Assembly (NCBI GenBank): GCA_002728195.1
Contig: PBWI01000070.1
Coordinates: forward strand, 68,075 to 103,971
Length of the DNA stretch: 35,897 bases
Source of the DNA: Chloroflexota bacterium
GTDB taxonomy: Bacteria > Chloroflexota > Dehalococcoidia > Lucifugimonadales > UBA826
Reading direction: 5' to 3'
Part shown: one piece after another, positions 1,598 to 32,188 of the stretch
Position numbering within the stretch: position 1 is the stretch's first letter
How the letters are laid out: each line of letters opens with the position of its first letter
Translations under genes and position numbers: made by a program
The notes under the pieces: generated by a model
Seen by the model: only the letters and a program-made list of their open reading frames with translations
The model's database searches: none
Told to the model about the DNA's origin: nothing

Positions 1598-2764
1598 ATG
1601 GCAATACCTATAGTTATGCCTAGGTTAGGCGACTTTATGACCGAAGGTATCGTAACTCGATTTACTAAAACCGCCGGTGATTCTGTGACTCAAGGGGAAG
1701 TTATAGCTGAAATAGAGACCGAAAAGGTAAATTACGATTTAGAGGCCACGAATTCTGGGGTTTTCCATCCGGTGGTGGATCAAGGCGATACCGTTCTAGT
1801 CGATGATGTCATGGGATATTTACTTGAAAAGGGGGAACTTCCTCCTAAAGTAGAGAAAACGACTGATAAAGATGCAGCAAATGAAAATATTACTATTGCA
1901 CCTAAAAGATCTCGGGAGACCAACTCCAATAGAAAAGGTGCTGCAGTGCCGTCCACTCCAGGTGCTAGAAAACTCGCAGCCAAATTAGGGATAGATCTTG
2001 AAAAAGTTGTACCTACTGGACCTAGAGGACGTGTAGTTGAGGCGGATGTAAAGGCTTTAGCAGAGGTTCCTGTAAACTCAAAACCTCAGACTCCACAGGG
2101 GTTGCCTCGCCCTATATCCGAAACTCCACTACAGGGAATGAGAAAGAGTATCGCCGCGAACATGAGGAATAGCTTAGCTGATACCGCGCAGTTATCCTAT
2201 TTCCTTGAGGTTGATGTAACTGAAGCCCAAAACCTTAGGCGTGAACAAGGTTTAGGTATGGCCGAATTTTTGATAAAAGCTACAAGTGAGGCATTGATAA
2301 GGGTTCCAACGCTCAATAGTGTGTTGGTGGGCGACTCAATTCTCAAATTCGATAGGGTTAACATGGCTTTTGCTGTGGCTTTGGACGACGGTTTGGTAGT
2401 ACCAGTTATCAGAGAGAGTAATTCAAAATCTATTCAAGAGATATCAAAAGAAGTAAAAAGCCTCTCAGAAGCTGCAAAGAACAGTGACCTAGGCCCAGAT
2501 GATTTTATGGGTGGAACTTTCACCATATCAATTTTAGGATCAGTTGATGGATTCACCCCAATACTCAATCAGGCGCAGGTTGGATTATTGGGTGTCGGCC
2601 GCTCCCTCCAAAAGCCTGTTGTGCGGGATGGAGAAGTAGTTGTAAGAGAAATGATGACATTAAGCCTAACTGGAGATCATCAAGTGGTTGATGGTGCCGT
2701 CGCGGCAAGCTTTTTTAGAAGACTGCAACGTTTAATAGAAAGCCCGGCGAAACTGTTTTCTTAG
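1598..2764 (+). CDS. 2-oxoacid dehydrogenase E2 component (dihydrolipoamide acyltransferase)
   Basis: This 388-residue E2 core takes the acyl group from E1 onto a lipoyl arm and then to CoA. Domains in order are: a single lipoyl domain (about 1-78) with the lipoylated lysine at about K43 in the motif EIETEKVNYDLEA; a charged linker; a peripheral-subunit (E1/E3) binding domain starting with PSTPGARKLAAKLGI (about 118-153); and the catalytic chloramphenicol-acetyltransferase-like domain (about 170-388) ending with the active-site HQVVDG motif (H361, D365). The start ATG follows AGGAGAGAGG. Its stop codon overlaps the stop of the convergent rhomboid gene by a few bases, so there is no room for a terminator between them. 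Confidence 0.95.
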   Translation: MAIPIVMPRLGDFMTEGIVTRFTKTAGDSVTQGEVIAEIETEKVNYDLEATNSGVFHPVVDQGDTVLVDDVMGYLLEKGELPPKVEKTTDKDAANENITIAPKRSRETNSNRKGAAVPSTPGARKLAAKLGIDLEKVVPTGPRGRVVEADVKALAEVPVNSKPQTPQGLPRPISETPLQGMRKSIAANMRNSLADTAQLSYFLEVDVTEAQNLRREQGLGMAEFLIKATSEALIRVPTLNSVLVGDSILKFDRVNMAFAVALDDGLVVPVIRESNSKSIQEISKEVKSLSEAAKNSDLGPDDFMGGTFTISILGSVDGFTPILNQAQVGLLGVGRSLQKPVVRDGEVVVREMMTLSLTGDHQVVDGAVAASFFRRLQRLIESPAKLFS

Positions 2765-3492
2765 AATACTGAAATAATATTTTGTGGTTCGTAAAGCCAA
2801 TGACCTATTCCCATTAAAGAAATAAGTATTAGCAACCCCACTATAACGACATAGATTAATTGTGTTGACTTTCCATTCTGTATTATCTTGTAATCGGTAT
2901 CAAATGTGGGAGTTTTTGGGGGAACCAAAAAGTATCCTGAGAGCAGTCCAGAAATAAAGCCGCCAATATGAGCCCAGTTATCCACCGCTGGTATAACGAA
3001 TCCGAATGCAAGGTTCACTATTGCTAATATTATTAGTCCGTTGAACGTTTGTTTCCCAGATTTCCCAAACCTGTGTTTCCTGACATAAAAATAAGAAACG
3101 AGACTGCCAAGGCATCCAAATATAGCACCGCTAGCTCCTGCGCCAACAACTCCGTTTGCAATATTCAAATAGCTTGCAGAGCTCCCTATCAGTCCAGTAA
3201 TTAAGAAAATAGAAAGGAAATTCCAGTGTCCATATAAACGCTCGGTTAGGCCCCCCATAATAACGAGACTTATGGAGTTTATTGCAAGATGGGAAGCGCC
3301 AACATGGAGGAAAATTGCCGTAGCGAGTCTCCAATATTCTCCTGACCAGATGAGATAGGAATCAATTGCTCCTAATCTGCGAAGGTTTGAGGGGTTTGTA
3401 CTTCCTCCATAGACCTCTAAAATTATCCAAAGGGATATATTGATAGCTGCTATAGCGTAGACAAAAATTGGTTTTTTTGAAGAGGTTATTAT
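2761..3492 (-). CDS. Rhomboid-family intramembrane serine protease, start codon unclear
   Basis: Membrane protease of the rhomboid fold. The catalytic serine lies in the GASG motif of VGAGASGAIFG and the catalytic histidine in NWAHIGGFISG. The family's conserved N-terminal part, GEYWRLATAIFLHVGASHL then INSISL, is also present. That part lies upstream of the first in-frame ATG (3256-3258), so that ATG cannot be the true start. Between the lysA stop TAG (3514-3516) and 3259 the frame is open but has no ATG, GTG or TTG. The coordinate given uses an ATA at 3490-3492, seven bases after an AGGGA; this is a guess. The reading frame is the same as lysA, so a readthrough product is formally possible. 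At least five hydrophobic membrane segments are visible. It is the last gene of the operon. Confidence 0.8.
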   Translation of the reverse strand: MITSSKKPIFVYAIAAINISLWIILEVYGGSTNPSNLRRLGAIDSYLIWSGEYWRLATAIFLHVGASHLAINSISLVIMGGLTERLYGHWNFLSIFLITGLIGSSASYLNIANGVVGAGASGAIFGCLGSLVSYFYVRKHRFGKSGKQTFNGLIILAIVNLAFGFVIPAVDNWAHIGGFISGLLSGYFLVPPKTPTFDTDYKIIQNGKSTQLIYVVIVGLLILISLMGIGHWLYEPQNIISVF

Positions 3493-3513
3493 GTCTTGGT
3501 CCCTATTGATTGG

Positions 3514-4827
3514 CTACGGTAAATCTAGCGCCATTAAATCTCGATAAGTCTCTCTTTTTCTAATCACTCTAGCTTTACCTTCTGAAACCATTACAATTTC
3601 GGGACGTGGGTTCATGTTGTAATTGCTGGACATTGCTATGCAGTATGCACCGGATGCTGGTATAGCAACTATGTCTCCTGCATCTAGTTTGGGTAGGTCA
3701 ATATCTTTTACTAAAATATCCCCTGTTTCACAATATTTGCCCGCGAGGGTAACAATGTTGACATTCTCTCCAGACATTTTGTTCGCAGCTACGGCTTCAT
3801 ATTGAGCATCGTACAAGGCTGGCCTTATGTTATCTCCCATGCCTCCATCTAAAGATACATAAGTTCGAACATTTGGGATTTCTTTTGTGACACCCACCGT
3901 ATATATAGCAACCCCGGCCCTTCCTACTATGGACCTTCCAGGCTCAATGATCAATTCAGGATATTCAATCCCTAAATCTTCACATTTGTTTTTCAGCATG
4001 GAGGTGATCACATCAGCATAATCTGACACCGAAGGAGGTAGCTGCTGCTGAAGATATCCGATTGCGAATCCCCCGCCTGGACTGAATTTTTTTAATTCTA
4101 GACCTTGGCTAAAAAATGGCTTCAAATACTCAAGCACTGTGTCTATTGCAGTTGAATAAGGTTCCAATTCGAAAATTGGAGACCCTAGATGGAAATGTAT
4201 TCCTTGGAGGTCAAGATTAGTGGAATCTATTGCTTGCTTGATGGCGATGCTACTTTCACCAGTTTCTATTGAGAATCCAAATTTCACATCCAGTATGCCT
4301 GTTGTGGTATGTGCATGGGTATGAGCATCGACAGATGGAGACAGTCTCAACATGATTCCTTGTACAGCGTTTTTAGATTTAGCTATTGAGTTCAATAAAT
4401 CCAGTTCTTGGAAACCGTCTACCACTATGGTTCCAACACCCAAATCTATCGCTTCAGAAAGTTCCTGTGGGGTTTTGTTGTTTCCGTGAAAGTACATTTT
4501 GCTACAGGGGAATCCTGCTGCGTTTGCGACTGCCACCTCTCCTCCTGAAACAACGTCGAGTGAGAGGTTCTCTTCGGTGGCTATTTTGGCCATTGCTAAA
4601 TTAAGAAAAGCTTTTGAGGCGTATGCGACAGAAGTTTTTGAGTATCTAGACGTAAATTCACCTACAAAAGCACGTGCCATGCTCCTTATGGTGTTTTCAT
4701 CGTAAACATAAAGCGGGGTTCCATGTGTTTTAGCGAGAGAAACAATGTCACATCCTCCTATTTCAAGAACTCCTTTAGAGTTGACTGTAGTTCCCATAGG
4801 AAAAACATCGGCATTTGAAAAAGTCAT
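3514..4827 (-). CDS. lysA: Diaminopimelate decarboxylase
   Basis: PLP-dependent enzyme that converts meso-diaminopimelate to L-lysine and CO2, the last step of lysine synthesis. The 437-residue length is usual for the family. The PLP-binding lysine is about K72 in AYASKAFLN. The glycine-rich phosphate-binding loop SPGGGFAIGY and the EPGRSIVGRAG motif are present, and the C-terminal SGAYCIAMSSNYN contains the active-site cysteine that comes from the partner subunit. ATG at 4827 is preceded by GGAGATACCCT. It lies 14 bases after the MBL hydrolase gene in the same operon, and the rhomboid protease follows directly in the same frame. A fused or separate ornithine-decarboxylase-type function is unlikely given the motifs. 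Confidence 0.95.
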   Translation of the reverse strand: MTFSNADVFPMGTTVNSKGVLEIGGCDIVSLAKTHGTPLYVYDENTIRSMARAFVGEFTSRYSKTSVAYASKAFLNLAMAKIATEENLSLDVVSGGEVAVANAAGFPCSKMYFHGNNKTPQELSEAIDLGVGTIVVDGFQELDLLNSIAKSKNAVQGIMLRLSPSVDAHTHAHTTTGILDVKFGFSIETGESSIAIKQAIDSTNLDLQGIHFHLGSPIFELEPYSTAIDTVLEYLKPFFSQGLELKKFSPGGGFAIGYLQQQLPPSVSDYADVITSMLKNKCEDLGIEYPELIIEPGRSIVGRAGVAIYTVGVTKEIPNVRTYVSLDGGMGDNIRPALYDAQYEAVAANKMSGENVNIVTLAGKYCETGDILVKDIDLPKLDAGDIVAIPASGAYCIAMSSNYNMNPRPEIVMVSEGKARVIRKRETYRDLMALDLP

Positions 4828-4841
4828 AGGGTATCTCCAAT

Positions 4842-5678
4842 TTAATGAACTATTCGGTAAATATTACCGGTTTGTTCAATCTTTTTCTCTTCCACTAATT
4901 TATTAATATGGGCTTGTATTTGTCGTCTTGCAGTGTTGTGAAGACCTGGGTGTATATCTCTGTATATGGCGCTGAAAATATCGTCCATAGAATTCTTTCC
5001 AGAACCGATTAAATCAAGCATTTGTAATTCACGTTGGTGTCTATGGTCAATTAATTCGTGAATTTTTTCTATTGGAGCATCTATTTCAGGACCGTGTCCA
5101 GGACATATTTTTTCAATGTCATAATTCAACATTTTGTGAAGGGATTTGATGTAGGAAGTCATGTCCCCTTCATCTGGAGAAATAACGGTGGTTCCTAATC
5201 CTAAAATGTTATCGCCTGTGAAAAGTACTTTATCTTCTTTCAAATAAATACACAGACTACCCATCGTGTGGCCCGGGGTGTGGATAAATTCTAAGGTTGT
5301 CTCCCCTAAATCCAGTTGCTCTCCATCCTGAGGGGTTATACCAACAGTTGCAGTTGATTCTTTTTCTATGGCGATTTTTTCTACAGAAGTAGATATCACT
5401 GGTGCGGTTATTTGCTAACTTAATGCTTGCGCTCCACCTATATGGTCACTATGCCTGTGAGTTAAAATAATTCCGGCCATTTCAGGATTACCTTCCGACT
5501 CCCAAACAGAAATATGTGCTTGAATTTCCTCGGGTTTTCCGTGTGCAGTGTCAATAAAGACGGATCTATTTTTCCCACGTACTAGATAAACATTCGGTGG
5601 GTATACCCCTCCATATTTAAATGGGTCTGGCTCGTTCTCGCCTACGACTATTTTTGTTATTCTGTCTGTAATTTTCAA
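4842..5678 (-). pseudogene. MBL-fold metallohydrolase (LACTB2/glyoxalase II-like) interrupted by in-frame TAG
   Basis: One 278-codon reading frame encodes a complete metallo-beta-lactamase-fold hydrolase, but codon 88 is TAG (5415-5417). Upstream of it is the metal-binding THRHSDHIGG motif; downstream, in the same frame, are FIHTPGHTMGS (His ligand), LFTGDNILG (bridging Asp) and CPGHGP (final His). A C-terminal winged-helix region follows, as in LACTB2-like proteins. The best start is TTG at 5678, six bases after AAAGGA. A GTG at 5399 could restart translation but would leave the HxHxDH motif on a separate chain. Because all metal ligands and the fold are otherwise intact, the stop is a recent mutation, a base error, or is read through. 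TAG ends several other genes here, so it is not reassigned generally. Confidence 0.78.
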
Positions 5679-5695
5679 TTTGTATCCTTTTATTT

Positions 5696-6358
5696 TTAAT
5701 GTGGTAATTTCACAGTACAAACCTTACGAGTCTCTGCACAGCAGAACCATATGTCGTCTTCGTAAATTGTCATCCCGTGTATTTCAGGTTCAGGAACGTC
5801 GATTTCACCTCGAATTTCACCATTTTCTGGGTCCATTTTATATATTTTGCAGTTCTGGGTGTCTGCAAGCCATAGGTTTCCATTATCTATAAAAAGACCG
5901 TGCGGTCTTACCCCAGGAGTTGGGATAGAGTGTTTCACTTCCATGTTTGTTGGGTTCAATAGGAACACTTTTTGAGCTGGAGGGACTGCTACCCACATAT
6001 TTTCCTCGTCGACCCATTCCATACCATGAGCACCGGTTATTTGAGGGTTCTCGGAAGATCCATATTGAGTAACTACCCCTTTCCCGGGTGTGTCAAAAAC
6101 CGCTGCAGTACTACCATCCATATTCAATTGGTAAAGCTCTGCACTATAGGTAGATGCAACCCAAAGGTATCCTCCTCCTTTTGTAACACCGCTCGATTTT
6201 GAGGTTTCGGTTTCCAAATCTTCTATGATAGATCCGTCGGAATAGGACAATTTGTATAGATGATCGTTACCTTGATCTATTGCCCAAAGTCCATCCGAAT
6301 CCGCTTGTAAACCATTTGGTTGTGGGCCAGGGTGAATCCATCTTTCCTCTGCCTGCAT
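5696..6358 (-). CDS. Beta-propeller (NHL/SMP-30/streptogramin-lyase-like) protein
   Basis: This 220-residue protein is built from about five repeats, each with a G-L/M-x-x-D...W core: PNGLQADSDGLWAID, SSGVTKGGGYLWVAS, AHGMEWVDEENMWVA, PHGLFIDNGNLWLAD and IHGMTIYEDDIWFCC. This pattern is typical of six-bladed propellers such as NHL repeats, SMP-30 or virginiamycin B lyase. No signal peptide is seen, so it is probably cytoplasmic. ATG at 6358 follows AAGGAGGAACTT. It is the first gene of the minus-strand operon, with the MBL hydrolase starting 17 bases after its stop. A lactonase or sugar-acid hydrolase role is possible, but no catalytic residues could be assigned with confidence. Confidence 0.8.
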   Translation of the reverse strand: MQAEERWIHPGPQPNGLQADSDGLWAIDQGNDHLYKLSYSDGSIIEDLETETSKSSGVTKGGGYLWVASTYSAELYQLNMDGSTAAVFDTPGKGVVTQYGSSENPQITGAHGMEWVDEENMWVAVPPAQKVFLLNPTNMEVKHSIPTPGVRPHGLFIDNGNLWLADTQNCKIYKMDPENGEIRGEIDVPEPEIHGMTIYEDDIWFCCAETRKVCTVKLPH

Positions 6359-28432: not shown

Positions 28433-30950
28433 TTTTCTGGGTCCATTGGAAAATACGCATAACAAGATCCTTGATTACATAGGATTTTATATTAGCCCAT
28501 GCTGATTCCAAATCACTGTAATTAGCGGCGTGGCTAGAATATTTTTCTATCATATATGCGTTGGTTATTTTATATATATCTGAGCTTATTATCGGGTATT
28601 TGGTAGACAATAATAGAGAGTACTCTTCTATGGTTTGATAATTATTTTTTGATATGCCAGCTAATTTACCTAAACGGTACATTTTGGTTGTAATTCTTTC
28701 GGTTGGAGATAATCTGGTGAGACCGTATTTCCAAAACGTCGTTATGAACAATAACACGACCGCTGACAAAAATATTAAAGATAGAGGTATCAAAATACTT
28801 TTTTGAGTTAATATATCAATGCTCGTAGTACCAGTGGTGACAGCTTCACCTTCGGGACCCAGTTCATCATAGAAATCGTCTGGTAGTTTTGGGTAATTTC
28901 CATCCTTGTAAATACTTTCAGACCTTATGAATGATGAAGGTGTTTTCTCTCTTAAATCTCTGGAAGGTTTTTCCCAATTTGGAGTTGGTTCAAAATCAAT
29001 CCATCCATAACTGGGGAAATATACTTGAACCCACCCGTGACTGTCTGAATCTTTGATTGTTGAAATATCATCTTCGGAATCATATGATCCGGATGAATAC
29101 CCTGTTGCTAGTCGTGACGGAATTCCCAAATCACGCAACATTACAGTCATGGCGGAAGCAAAATAATCGCTGTATCCGGCTTTGCTAGTGAATAAAAAAT
29201 AATCCACTCCGTCGGCCCCAACAGGAGGCGTGGAAATTTTTTGAGAGTACACATAATTGCCACTTCGTAGATGCTTTTCAATGGCCACAGCTTTGTCATA
29301 TGGGGTTGGTTCTTTAGAAGTTATCTGCTGGGCTAGGTTAGATATTCTACGAGGCATATCTTCAGGCAAATCAAGATAGTGATCTTTTATGAACCCGTGG
29401 TACTTTTGGCTAGAGTTTCTCAGGTCCTCAGGGGTCGATACGGATACATGAGAAACCATCGTTAATTTCTTGTTCGCTGGAATTTGCCGAGATAGGTTCC
29501 AGTCCACAATATCTAAATTCGGTGGCATCTCACGGACTAAATTAATGATTTCTGTATCATTTTCGCTGGATGTGGTGTTTACATATTTGTATTCTTTTGG
29601 CAGGTTGTTGGCCAAAAAGTTTCCATATCTTCCATATTTTATTCCACTAGGGTCTTCTAGGAGAAAGTTTTCTAATTCTAATTCAAACACCTGTAGATCT
29701 TCTGGAACAGATTTGTCGACTATATCGTCTCCAATTGATAACTGAAAGGATTTTGGTTTTAGAGATTCTAGTTCGACGGGTTCACTGACACTAGAAATAC
29801 TTCCACCAGCAAAAAATTGGTCTGAAGGGAATGACATTTGCATCAACTGTTTAACCGGTTTCGTTGATTTTAGTCCTTTTGTATTATCAAAATTGGAATT
29901 TTTTCTGATATCAATAGTATTTGTTTCACCGGATATCCAACCTTCATGAGTGTAGGTGTCATAAGTTCGAGAAATCCAGTAGTTGGGATAATCAGATTTT
30001 GTGGTTAATACCCCCTCTTCTCTAAAGGAAATAGAACCTATAAAAGGCAAAAATTTGCCAAAGAATCGGCCATTTTGTTGGGTTCTTGATGGGACACTTC
30101 CCAAAAGACGAGCAAACTCCTCTTCGATCTGAGCTATTGGGGTTCTAGCGTCCTTCCAGGCATCAGCTACGGGTCTGTACACATAAATTTTCATAGGTAT
30201 GGCAGTGGCAATCACCAATATTGCAAGGCTATACCAGATAGCGGAATTTAAAGTGAGCCAACCATCCCATTTATTGAATGAGGTTCCATTTCTAATCCAG
30301 TCATGTTTTTGTTTTACTGTTGTAATGTGAGTTATCAGAATCATGGCTGTGAATGCATAGAGATAGAATCTTGAACTGTATTCTTGGGGCAGGAAACTTA
30401 GACATGTGAGTATGGATACTCCATTAAGTACGATTGAAATCCAAATGTTATTGTGTTTAAAGGTAAACCATGAGCAAACGTACCCTAGTATCCAAGAGAG
30501 ACTTAACAGAGTAATCGTGTAAGGGATCAAATCAGTGCTGATACCATCGCTAGTTGCTATTCCATACCAATAATCTAACCTCAATTTCAGTTCTGACACC
30601 TTCTCCAAAAATGGCATGTCTTTTATAAGAGTTAGTGTCTGGTAAAGGACGAAACTCATTCCTACTATCAATGAAATTACATGTATAAAAAAAGAATGCA
30701 ATTTGATGCGTGCAAAACATACCGGGATAAAGCTGGAAATCAAAATAGAAGAATAAATGCCAGGAGTCTTTACCCAGTTACCCATAACCACAATATCTAC
30801 TGTGCAAAGAAGTGAAAGTAAAAGAATGAAATAGAGCATAACTCCTTGATCAGGTAAAAAGCTCTTTAAAATATTTAATACAGTACCTTTTTTAGTTGAA
30901 GTCGGTAGCTGTGGCTTCAATAATTCGGCTATTGATACATTCCTGTTCAT
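28410..30950 (-). CDS. Membrane transglutaminase-like protein (TgpA/DUF3488 type) with Ser at the Cys position
   Basis: This 846-residue membrane protein has a hydrophobic N-terminal region with several membrane helices (about 30-280), an extracytoplasmic transglutaminase-like core (about 540-670), one further helix near 735 (IPLSLIFLSAVVLLFITTF) and a cytoplasmic helical tail like DUF4129. The core reads AGYSDYFASAMTVMLRDLGI, then RLATGY, SHGWVQVYF (H638) and WIDFEPTPNWE (D652). Most relatives have Cys where this protein has Ser594 (codon AGC, 29169-29171), so the thiol nucleophile is missing. His and Asp are kept. It overlaps the preceding DUF58 gene by ATGA, and such genes regularly accompany MoxR and DUF58. 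Confidence 0.92.
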   Translation of the reverse strand: MNRNVSIAELLKPQLPTSTKKGTVLNILKSFLPDQGVMLYFILLLSLLCTVDIVVMGNWVKTPGIYSSILISSFIPVCFARIKLHSFFIHVISLIVGMSFVLYQTLTLIKDMPFLEKVSELKLRLDYWYGIATSDGISTDLIPYTITLLSLSWILGYVCSWFTFKHNNIWISIVLNGVSILTCLSFLPQEYSSRFYLYAFTAMILITHITTVKQKHDWIRNGTSFNKWDGWLTLNSAIWYSLAILVIATAIPMKIYVYRPVADAWKDARTPIAQIEEEFARLLGSVPSRTQQNGRFFGKFLPFIGSISFREEGVLTTKSDYPNYWISRTYDTYTHEGWISGETNTIDIRKNSNFDNTKGLKSTKPVKQLMQMSFPSDQFFAGGSISSVSEPVELESLKPKSFQLSIGDDIVDKSVPEDLQVFELELENFLLEDPSGIKYGRYGNFLANNLPKEYKYVNTTSSENDTEIINLVREMPPNLDIVDWNLSRQIPANKKLTMVSHVSVSTPEDLRNSSQKYHGFIKDHYLDLPEDMPRRISNLAQQITSKEPTPYDKAVAIEKHLRSGNYVYSQKISTPPVGADGVDYFLFTSKAGYSDYFASAMTVMLRDLGIPSRLATGYSSGSYDSEDDISTIKDSDSHGWVQVYFPSYGWIDFEPTPNWEKPSRDLREKTPSSFIRSESIYKDGNYPKLPDDFYDELGPEGEAVTTGTTSIDILTQKSILIPLSLIFLSAVVLLFITTFWKYGLTRLSPTERITTKMYRLGKLAGISKNNYQTIEEYSLLLSTKYPIISSDIYKITNAYMIEKYSSHAANYSDLESAWANIKSYVIKDLVMRIFQWTQKNGTYKSN

Positions 30951-31654
30951 CTTGATGATAGTCCGGCTAATTTTGAACTGTCTGCCCGGGAGAAGGACCG
31001 AGATAAAGCAGCTTCCATTGAATCGCCTTTTCTCAATATAAATGGAGATATGCCTATACTGGCTAGGGTGGATATCACATCCGTTTGATCACCGTCACCT
31101 GAAAATGAAATAGGATCGATCAATATCACAGTGATGTTTATGTTGAACTGAGTTAACTCTGAAAGCGCACTAACCCATTCAATGTTATTGGATGGGGTTA
31201 TGACGATAATAGAAGTGTAGTTAATCCATATATTTCTTTCTTCATTCAAAATTTGATGTAATTTCTTATCATCACTAGATTGAGCTTGTGCCAAAATTTC
31301 CATTGTTCTATCAAAATGAGATGACCCTGTGCTGGGAGGTAAATGATAACGTTCTTTTCCATAACTCAGGAATCCGACCGGAGTATTTGAATTGATGTAT
31401 TTTTTGCATAACGAGGCCACCAAGGAGATTGAGAGTTCAATGCTGCTTTCATCTAACTCACCGACATGCACTGAATCATTTAAATCATTCAATATCATGA
31501 CCTCATTGGATGTTCCTACGTCGAATTCTTTCGACATAAGCCTTCCGGATCTGGCCGTACTTTTCCAATGTATGCGACTTAGACTGTCACCATAGGCGTA
31601 TTCTCTTACACTTGAAGCATGTGGAGATAAAATGTTGGACCTTCTTCTCGCCAT
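30947..31654 (-). CDS. DUF58 protein, C-terminal part (split gene)
   Basis: This is the C-terminal 235 residues of a DUF58 protein. It contains the family signature VREYAYGDSLSRIHWKSTAR followed by GRLMSKEFDVG, and then a von Willebrand A-like fold (VMILNDLND with the metal-site Asp). In relatives this continues from the membrane-anchored half now encoded at 31655-32188. Here an in-frame TGA at 31655-31657 separates them, and ATG follows directly, so reinitiation (sequence TGAATG) could give a second chain. The two halves might then reassemble. It overlaps the transglutaminase-like gene by four bases. Function in the family is unresolved. Confidence 0.85.
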   Translation of the reverse strand: MARRRSNILSPHASSVREYAYGDSLSRIHWKSTARSGRLMSKEFDVGTSNEVMILNDLNDSVHVGELDESSIELSISLVASLCKKYINSNTPVGFLSYGKERYHLPPSTGSSHFDRTMEILAQAQSSDDKKLHQILNEERNIWINYTSIIVITPSNNIEWVSALSELTQFNINITVILIDPISFSGDGDQTDVISTLASIGISPFILRKGDSMEAALSRSFSRADSSKLAGLSSR

Positions 31655-32188
31655 TCATTCATTGGTTAAATTACTGTTTCCAGTTTGGAAATTTTTCAAA
31701 TCATGTATCTTGGGATATATCATTATCTTGTCGGGAGAACCGTGAAGTGTATTGGCTCTATAAATACCAAGAAGATCGGTTGTGGATATTTCTACAGGCC
31801 CCATTTGGAATAAACCTCTGTGGTAAGCCTTGTCTGTTGATCGCCAAGACCTGTACCCTTTTGTGGTAAGGCCCAATGCGTATGAACTGGTATATTTGGG
31901 TATTGTCGTGATATCTGTAGCCATTAATAGCGTTTTCGGTATCATGCTGAGATTCCGAATACTTATTCTTTTGTCTATCTGTTCTCCTACGCTAAGTAGG
32001 TGATTTCGTCGATCTATGGTGACCTCAAGTTTTCTAGCATTTAGGTAGACGGAGAGCAGGGATATGATGCAGACCACAGAGATTATGTAACCCAGCCTGA
32101 AGAAAAGTCCAAACCCAGTGGCTAGTCCGGTCACAAGAGTGACAATCAAAATTACAATTATCAGATAAAATCGTGGGGTTGGGACCAA
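31655..32188 (-). CDS. DUF58 protein, N-terminal membrane part (split gene)
   Basis: This is the N-terminal part of a DUF58 protein. Two adjacent hydrophobic helices (FYLIIVILIVTLVTGLATG and FRLGYIISVVCIISLLSVYL) are followed by a beta-rich domain (LLSVGEQIDKRISIRN, DLLGIYRANTL, KIMIYPKIHDL), the usual order before the DUF58 core. The chain stops at a TGA in the linker that precedes the conserved core. The coordinate uses TTG at 32188; an ATT at 32203 has the better placed GGAG and would add MTKIR-type residues. It lies about 19 bases after moxR on the same strand. Confidence 0.82.
   Translation of the reverse strand: MVPTPRFYLIIVILIVTLVTGLATGFGLFFRLGYIISVVCIISLLSVYLNARKLEVTIDRRNHLLSVGEQIDKRISIRNLSMIPKTLLMATDITTIPKYTSSYALGLTTKGYRSWRSTDKAYHRGLFQMGPVEISTTDLLGIYRANTLHGSPDKIMIYPKIHDLKNFQTGNSNLTNE

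Follow-up and report, generated by a model that had tools for sequence, protein, structure and literature searches.

The question raised by this locus is where the translation of a rhomboid gene begins if its frame appears to have no start codon. The window analysed here is a stretch of 35,897 nucleotides from the draft genome of a marine SAR202 bacterium (1.7 Mb, 110 contigs, 89% complete, 4% contaminated; the assembly yielded no 16S rRNA). On its minus strand a frame for a rhomboid-family intramembrane protease directly follows the stop codon of lysA, and the first in-frame ATG, GTG or TTG after this stop is only codon 86 of the rhomboid frame. An initial annotation, made from the sequence alone, had offered three explanations, namely initiation at a rare codon, readthrough of the lysA UAG giving a LysA-rhomboid fusion, or a wrong base.

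The lysA-rhomboid gene pair in the window

The lysA gene (3514..4827, minus strand) encodes a diaminopimelate decarboxylase with the domains PF02784 and PF00278, starts with ATG and ends with TAG at 3516-3514. Its C-terminus, ...RETYRDLMALDLP*, is matched in the congeners, with the TAG at the same place. The rhomboid frame (2761..3513, minus strand) consists of 250 codons (3513-2764) and a TAA stop (2763-2761). It follows the lysA TAG without a gap and in the lysA frame, which confirms the earlier statement that the two frames are the same. Residues 58-197 match the Pfam Rhomboid domain PF01694 with an E-value of 2.8e-32 and 112.3 bits against a curated cut-off of 22.6, covering positions 2-141 of the 143 profile positions. 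The domain is preceded by a hydrophobic N-terminal stretch, and the active-site motifs GASG (serine) and AHIGG (histidine) are kept in the window and in all congeners. With the full domain, both motifs and the N-terminal stretch, the predicted protein appears to be no different from the GlpG/YqgP-like bacterial rhomboid proteases of PF01694, and the sole departure is the start codon missing in this one sequence. The best explanation of lysA and the rhomboid gene is that they form an ordinary gene pair.

The ATG at codon 86 (3256..3258, minus strand) lies too far downstream for a complete rhomboid, as a protein begun at 3258 would lack the N-terminal transmembrane stretch as well as the beginning of the conserved domain. 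The initial annotation was therefore correct in placing the conserved N-terminal region upstream of the first ATG, and also in finding no ATG, GTG or TTG in frame between the lysA TAG and that region. The 5′ end of a constrained frame is thus without a canonical start. Inside the window genes 6.1% of all codons are ATG, GTG or TTG, and the chance of 85 codons without any of them is about 0.5% per gene. Such a start-free run is unusual in one gene, but not across a whole genome.

The remainder of the frame shows the pattern of a maintained gene. In comparison to the closest species the rhomboid gene has a dN of 0.11 and a dS of 1.28 (omega 0.087), and in the conserved core (residues 58-200) 12 nonsynonymous stand against 67 synonymous differences. 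None of the 250 codons is interrupted by a stop or a frameshift. At rhomboid columns that are otherwise fixed, the window has six changes of its own, most of them conservative, and the sister has four. As judged from these substitutions, purifying selection acted on the rhomboid gene until nearly the present, and the gene would have been translated during most of the period since the species diverged. Given an intact and constrained frame, three explanations are left, namely that the codon is an artefact or a minority allele, that the start was lost very recently, or that another start rescues the gene.

The start position in related genomes

The position of the start was sought by alignment with related genomes, the check that had been suggested with the initial annotation. 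The comparison set comprised eight genomes of the genus, i.e. that of the window and those of seven congener species, and the gene is present in all of them. In the six congeners whose contig includes the end of lysA, the TAG is followed by the rhomboid frame in phase and with zero gap, and the contig of the seventh starts at the lysA TAG itself. Codon 4 after this TAG is canonical in all seven congeners (GTG in L003, L004, L006, L007, L008 and L009, and ATG in L005), and in each of them it is the sole ATG, GTG or TTG before codon 26. The check thus gave an ordinary start at the same place in every close relative. What the relatives have in common at the 5′ end of this gene is a GTG or ATG and not a rare start. 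In the window the same codon, at 3502..3504 on the minus strand, reads AGG. The codons around it vary among the congeners (TIN, SVN, SIK, SII or SIT before, D or R after), whereas codon 4 itself exchanges GTG and ATG only. The probability that unconstrained codons would produce such a column is about 0.004, even when the congeners are counted as three independent lineages and 20 columns are allowed for. Because its place is invariant and its exchanges are limited in a way that is improbable without constraint, codon 4, nine bases behind the lysA stop, is by this comparison the normal start of the rhomboid gene in the genus.

Since no SD-like motif stands clearly before the codon 4 start in the congeners, we propose that translation of the rhomboid gene in this genus, beginning nine bases behind the lysA stop, is probably coupled to that of lysA by termination-reinitiation. 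In E. coli, stop-to-start distances near +10 have been reported for a limited set of genes and gene pairs (PMC10666635). The congeners resemble the closely spaced termination-reinitiation pairs of Huber et al. (PMC6728339, PMC10666635) in their nine-base spacing and in having no clear SD of their own, and it is from this likeness in sequence that we infer coupling here. The window differs from such pairs in that its start codon is AGG. In L003, the closest relative, the rhomboid start reads AATGTGG and so forms an AUGUG overlap, in which an ATG in another frame precedes the GTG by two bases. Initiation at AUGUG is a case described for E. coli (PMC9841429).

Codon 4 in the draft consensus

The AGG at codon 4 probably reflects either a fault at the base level or the presence of a minority allele in a metagenome-assembled draft consensus, and the rhomboid frame would then only seem to be without a start. 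The base at 3504-3502 would accordingly not represent the living population. We arrive at this reading because of the conserved start in the relatives, the intact and constrained frame, other point lesions in the window and the many undetermined bases of the contig. The wrong base considered in the initial annotation is thereby supported in so far as a base is wrong or changed, given the canonical codon 4 in seven of seven relatives.

The point lesions were seen when the window was compared gene by gene with three congeners, with reciprocal comparisons in addition. A gene with a metallo-beta-lactamase fold (4842-5720) contains an in-frame TAG at 5415..5417 (minus strand), where the relatives have GAG, GAG and AAG; in all three it is a single frame of 292-293 amino acids. 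A DUF58 gene (about 30947-32188) contains an in-frame TGA at 31655..31657 (minus strand), which is GGA in G004, the one relative having this gene in the stretch compared. The DUF58 gene adjoins a MoxR-type AAA gene and a transglutaminase gene. In the reciprocal comparisons all stops lay close to the ends of genes or in 5′ parts that are doubtful. The gene-by-gene comparison with the three congeners revealed no frameshifts, and all other window genes that were compared have a canonical start where their relatives start. Outside the window, positions 1-68,074 of the contig contain 186 isolated single N (0.27%), and the window begins one base after the last of them. Nonsynonymous changes are in excess on the window branch when compared to the sister, with ratios to synonymous changes of 65:308 and 21:202, respectively (65/373 vs 21/223, p 0.008). 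Taken together, the nonsense codons, the N in the contig and the nonsynonymous excess suggest either that individual bases of the consensus cannot be relied on or that the lineage is accumulating damage.

Several observations speak against a faulty base. The window itself is free of N, and the nonsynonymous excess could equally result from relaxed selection or recombination. An error rate estimated from the two nonsense codons (about 0.13%) predicts only about 0.1 lost starts in the window. Furthermore, if the ancestor had GTG as the sister does, AGG differs from it in two bases, a difference that a single random error would be less likely to produce. An excess of transversions is weak evidence for an error signature, as most of those on the window branch (75 of 105) are synonymous, which fits real divergence. 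About ten window-only transversions lie within 300 bases at 5349-5655, in the metallo-beta-lactamase-fold gene and around its nonsense codon; this cluster is possibly mosaic or faulty sequence. A search for other sequences of the same species found none, viral contigs being empty both by protein and by junction pattern.

A fault or minority allele at codon 4 would also carry a caution, in that a striking gene without a start or a readthrough fusion in a metagenome-assembled genome may hinge on one codon, and comparison with a few congeners is enough to place the start. If, on the other hand, AGG were confirmed in the population, the locus would offer an attractive example of a start recently lost or relocated in an uncultured and abundant marine lineage.

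Readings in which the AGG codon is real

We consider it rather unlikely that AGG is both real and recent, with the lineage having lost the start and the rhomboid gene being silent or nearly so, i.e. a young pseudogene. Such a loss would agree with the replacement of an otherwise invariant start, with the nonsense codons in two further window genes and with the nonsynonymous excess on the window branch. However, the 250 codons have kept free of stops and frameshifts, and the window-specific changes are for the most part conservative and similar in number to those of the sister, so that the loss would have to be very recent.

It is likewise unlikely, and a little more so in our estimate, that AGG is real and that translation starts at a nearby rare codon, either at ATC (codon 2, three bases behind the TAG) or at ATA (codons 8 and 9). 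The ATA named in the initial annotation lies at 3490..3492 on the minus strand and is indeed preceded, seven bases upstream, by AGGGA (3504-3500). An intact and constrained frame would be expected of a gene rescued in this way, the AGGG stands at a workable distance from the ATA, and SD-like 4-mers appear to be used in this genome, where they precede 19 of 30 window genes compared to 14% of random positions. However, the SD-like AGGGA is nothing other than the altered AGG codon followed by GA, and the motif is absent from the congeners. None of the congeners needs a rare start, and the candidate codons themselves are not kept (L004 has GTT as codon 2, and L009 has TTA as codon 8). The other window genes compared all start canonically where their relatives do. 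The ATA and the motif were thus correctly read, while their role as a start and its ribosome binding site finds no counterpart in the relatives.

Rare start codons do have precedents in bacteria. In E. coli, infC starts with AUU, a rare start that is conserved among relatives. The rhomboid gene differs from infC in this respect, as every relative has a canonical start. With infC and with Streptomyces sigR, for which a GTC start is described (PMC5472188), the rhomboid gene of the window shares a constrained frame that has no ATG, GTG or TTG near its 5′ end. AGG itself is one of two single-base variants of AUG that were set apart as not used, according to eukaryotic data (PMC4648390). A more specific variant, in which AGG is fixed in the species and the rhomboid start has moved to ATA (or ATC), with the SD made by the same change that removed the old start, seems to us quite improbable; if true, it would be a start-codon relocation caught in the act.

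Readthrough of the lysA UAG into a LysA-rhomboid fusion is the least credible of the readings and very improbable. In its favour, the TAG and the in-frame arrangement with zero gap are found throughout the congeners. However, all of these have a canonical start at the fourth codon behind the TAG, which makes a fusion unnecessary, and the codons between TAG and start vary. Moreover, a phase shared with lysA is expected by chance in one case out of three, and a single inheritance may account for the arrangement throughout the genus. In other genera of this family the gene pair persists without this arrangement, and lysA ends with TAA. In L010 the rhomboid gene starts at an ATG further down from the TAA, in L023 the TAA is directly followed by ATG, and in L011, L018 and L019 the rhomboid gene is in a different frame from lysA. 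Because these genera use TAA, other frames or an ATG of their own, the fusion does not appear to be a conserved product. Beyond the genus neither stop nor phase is conserved, and all seven congeners have a downstream start of their own; the readthrough option of the initial annotation is therefore not supported.

Two further candidates were rejected. Against a frameshift at the run of seven A near 3475, neither of the other frames has a start between the nearest upstream stop and the run, and the N-terminal frame of the window aligns in frame with the congeners. Reassignment of a stop codon was considered for the two in-frame stops, but these are not the same codon, TAG standing at a GAG/AAG position and TGA at a GGA position, and the congeners use TAG as the stop of lysA.
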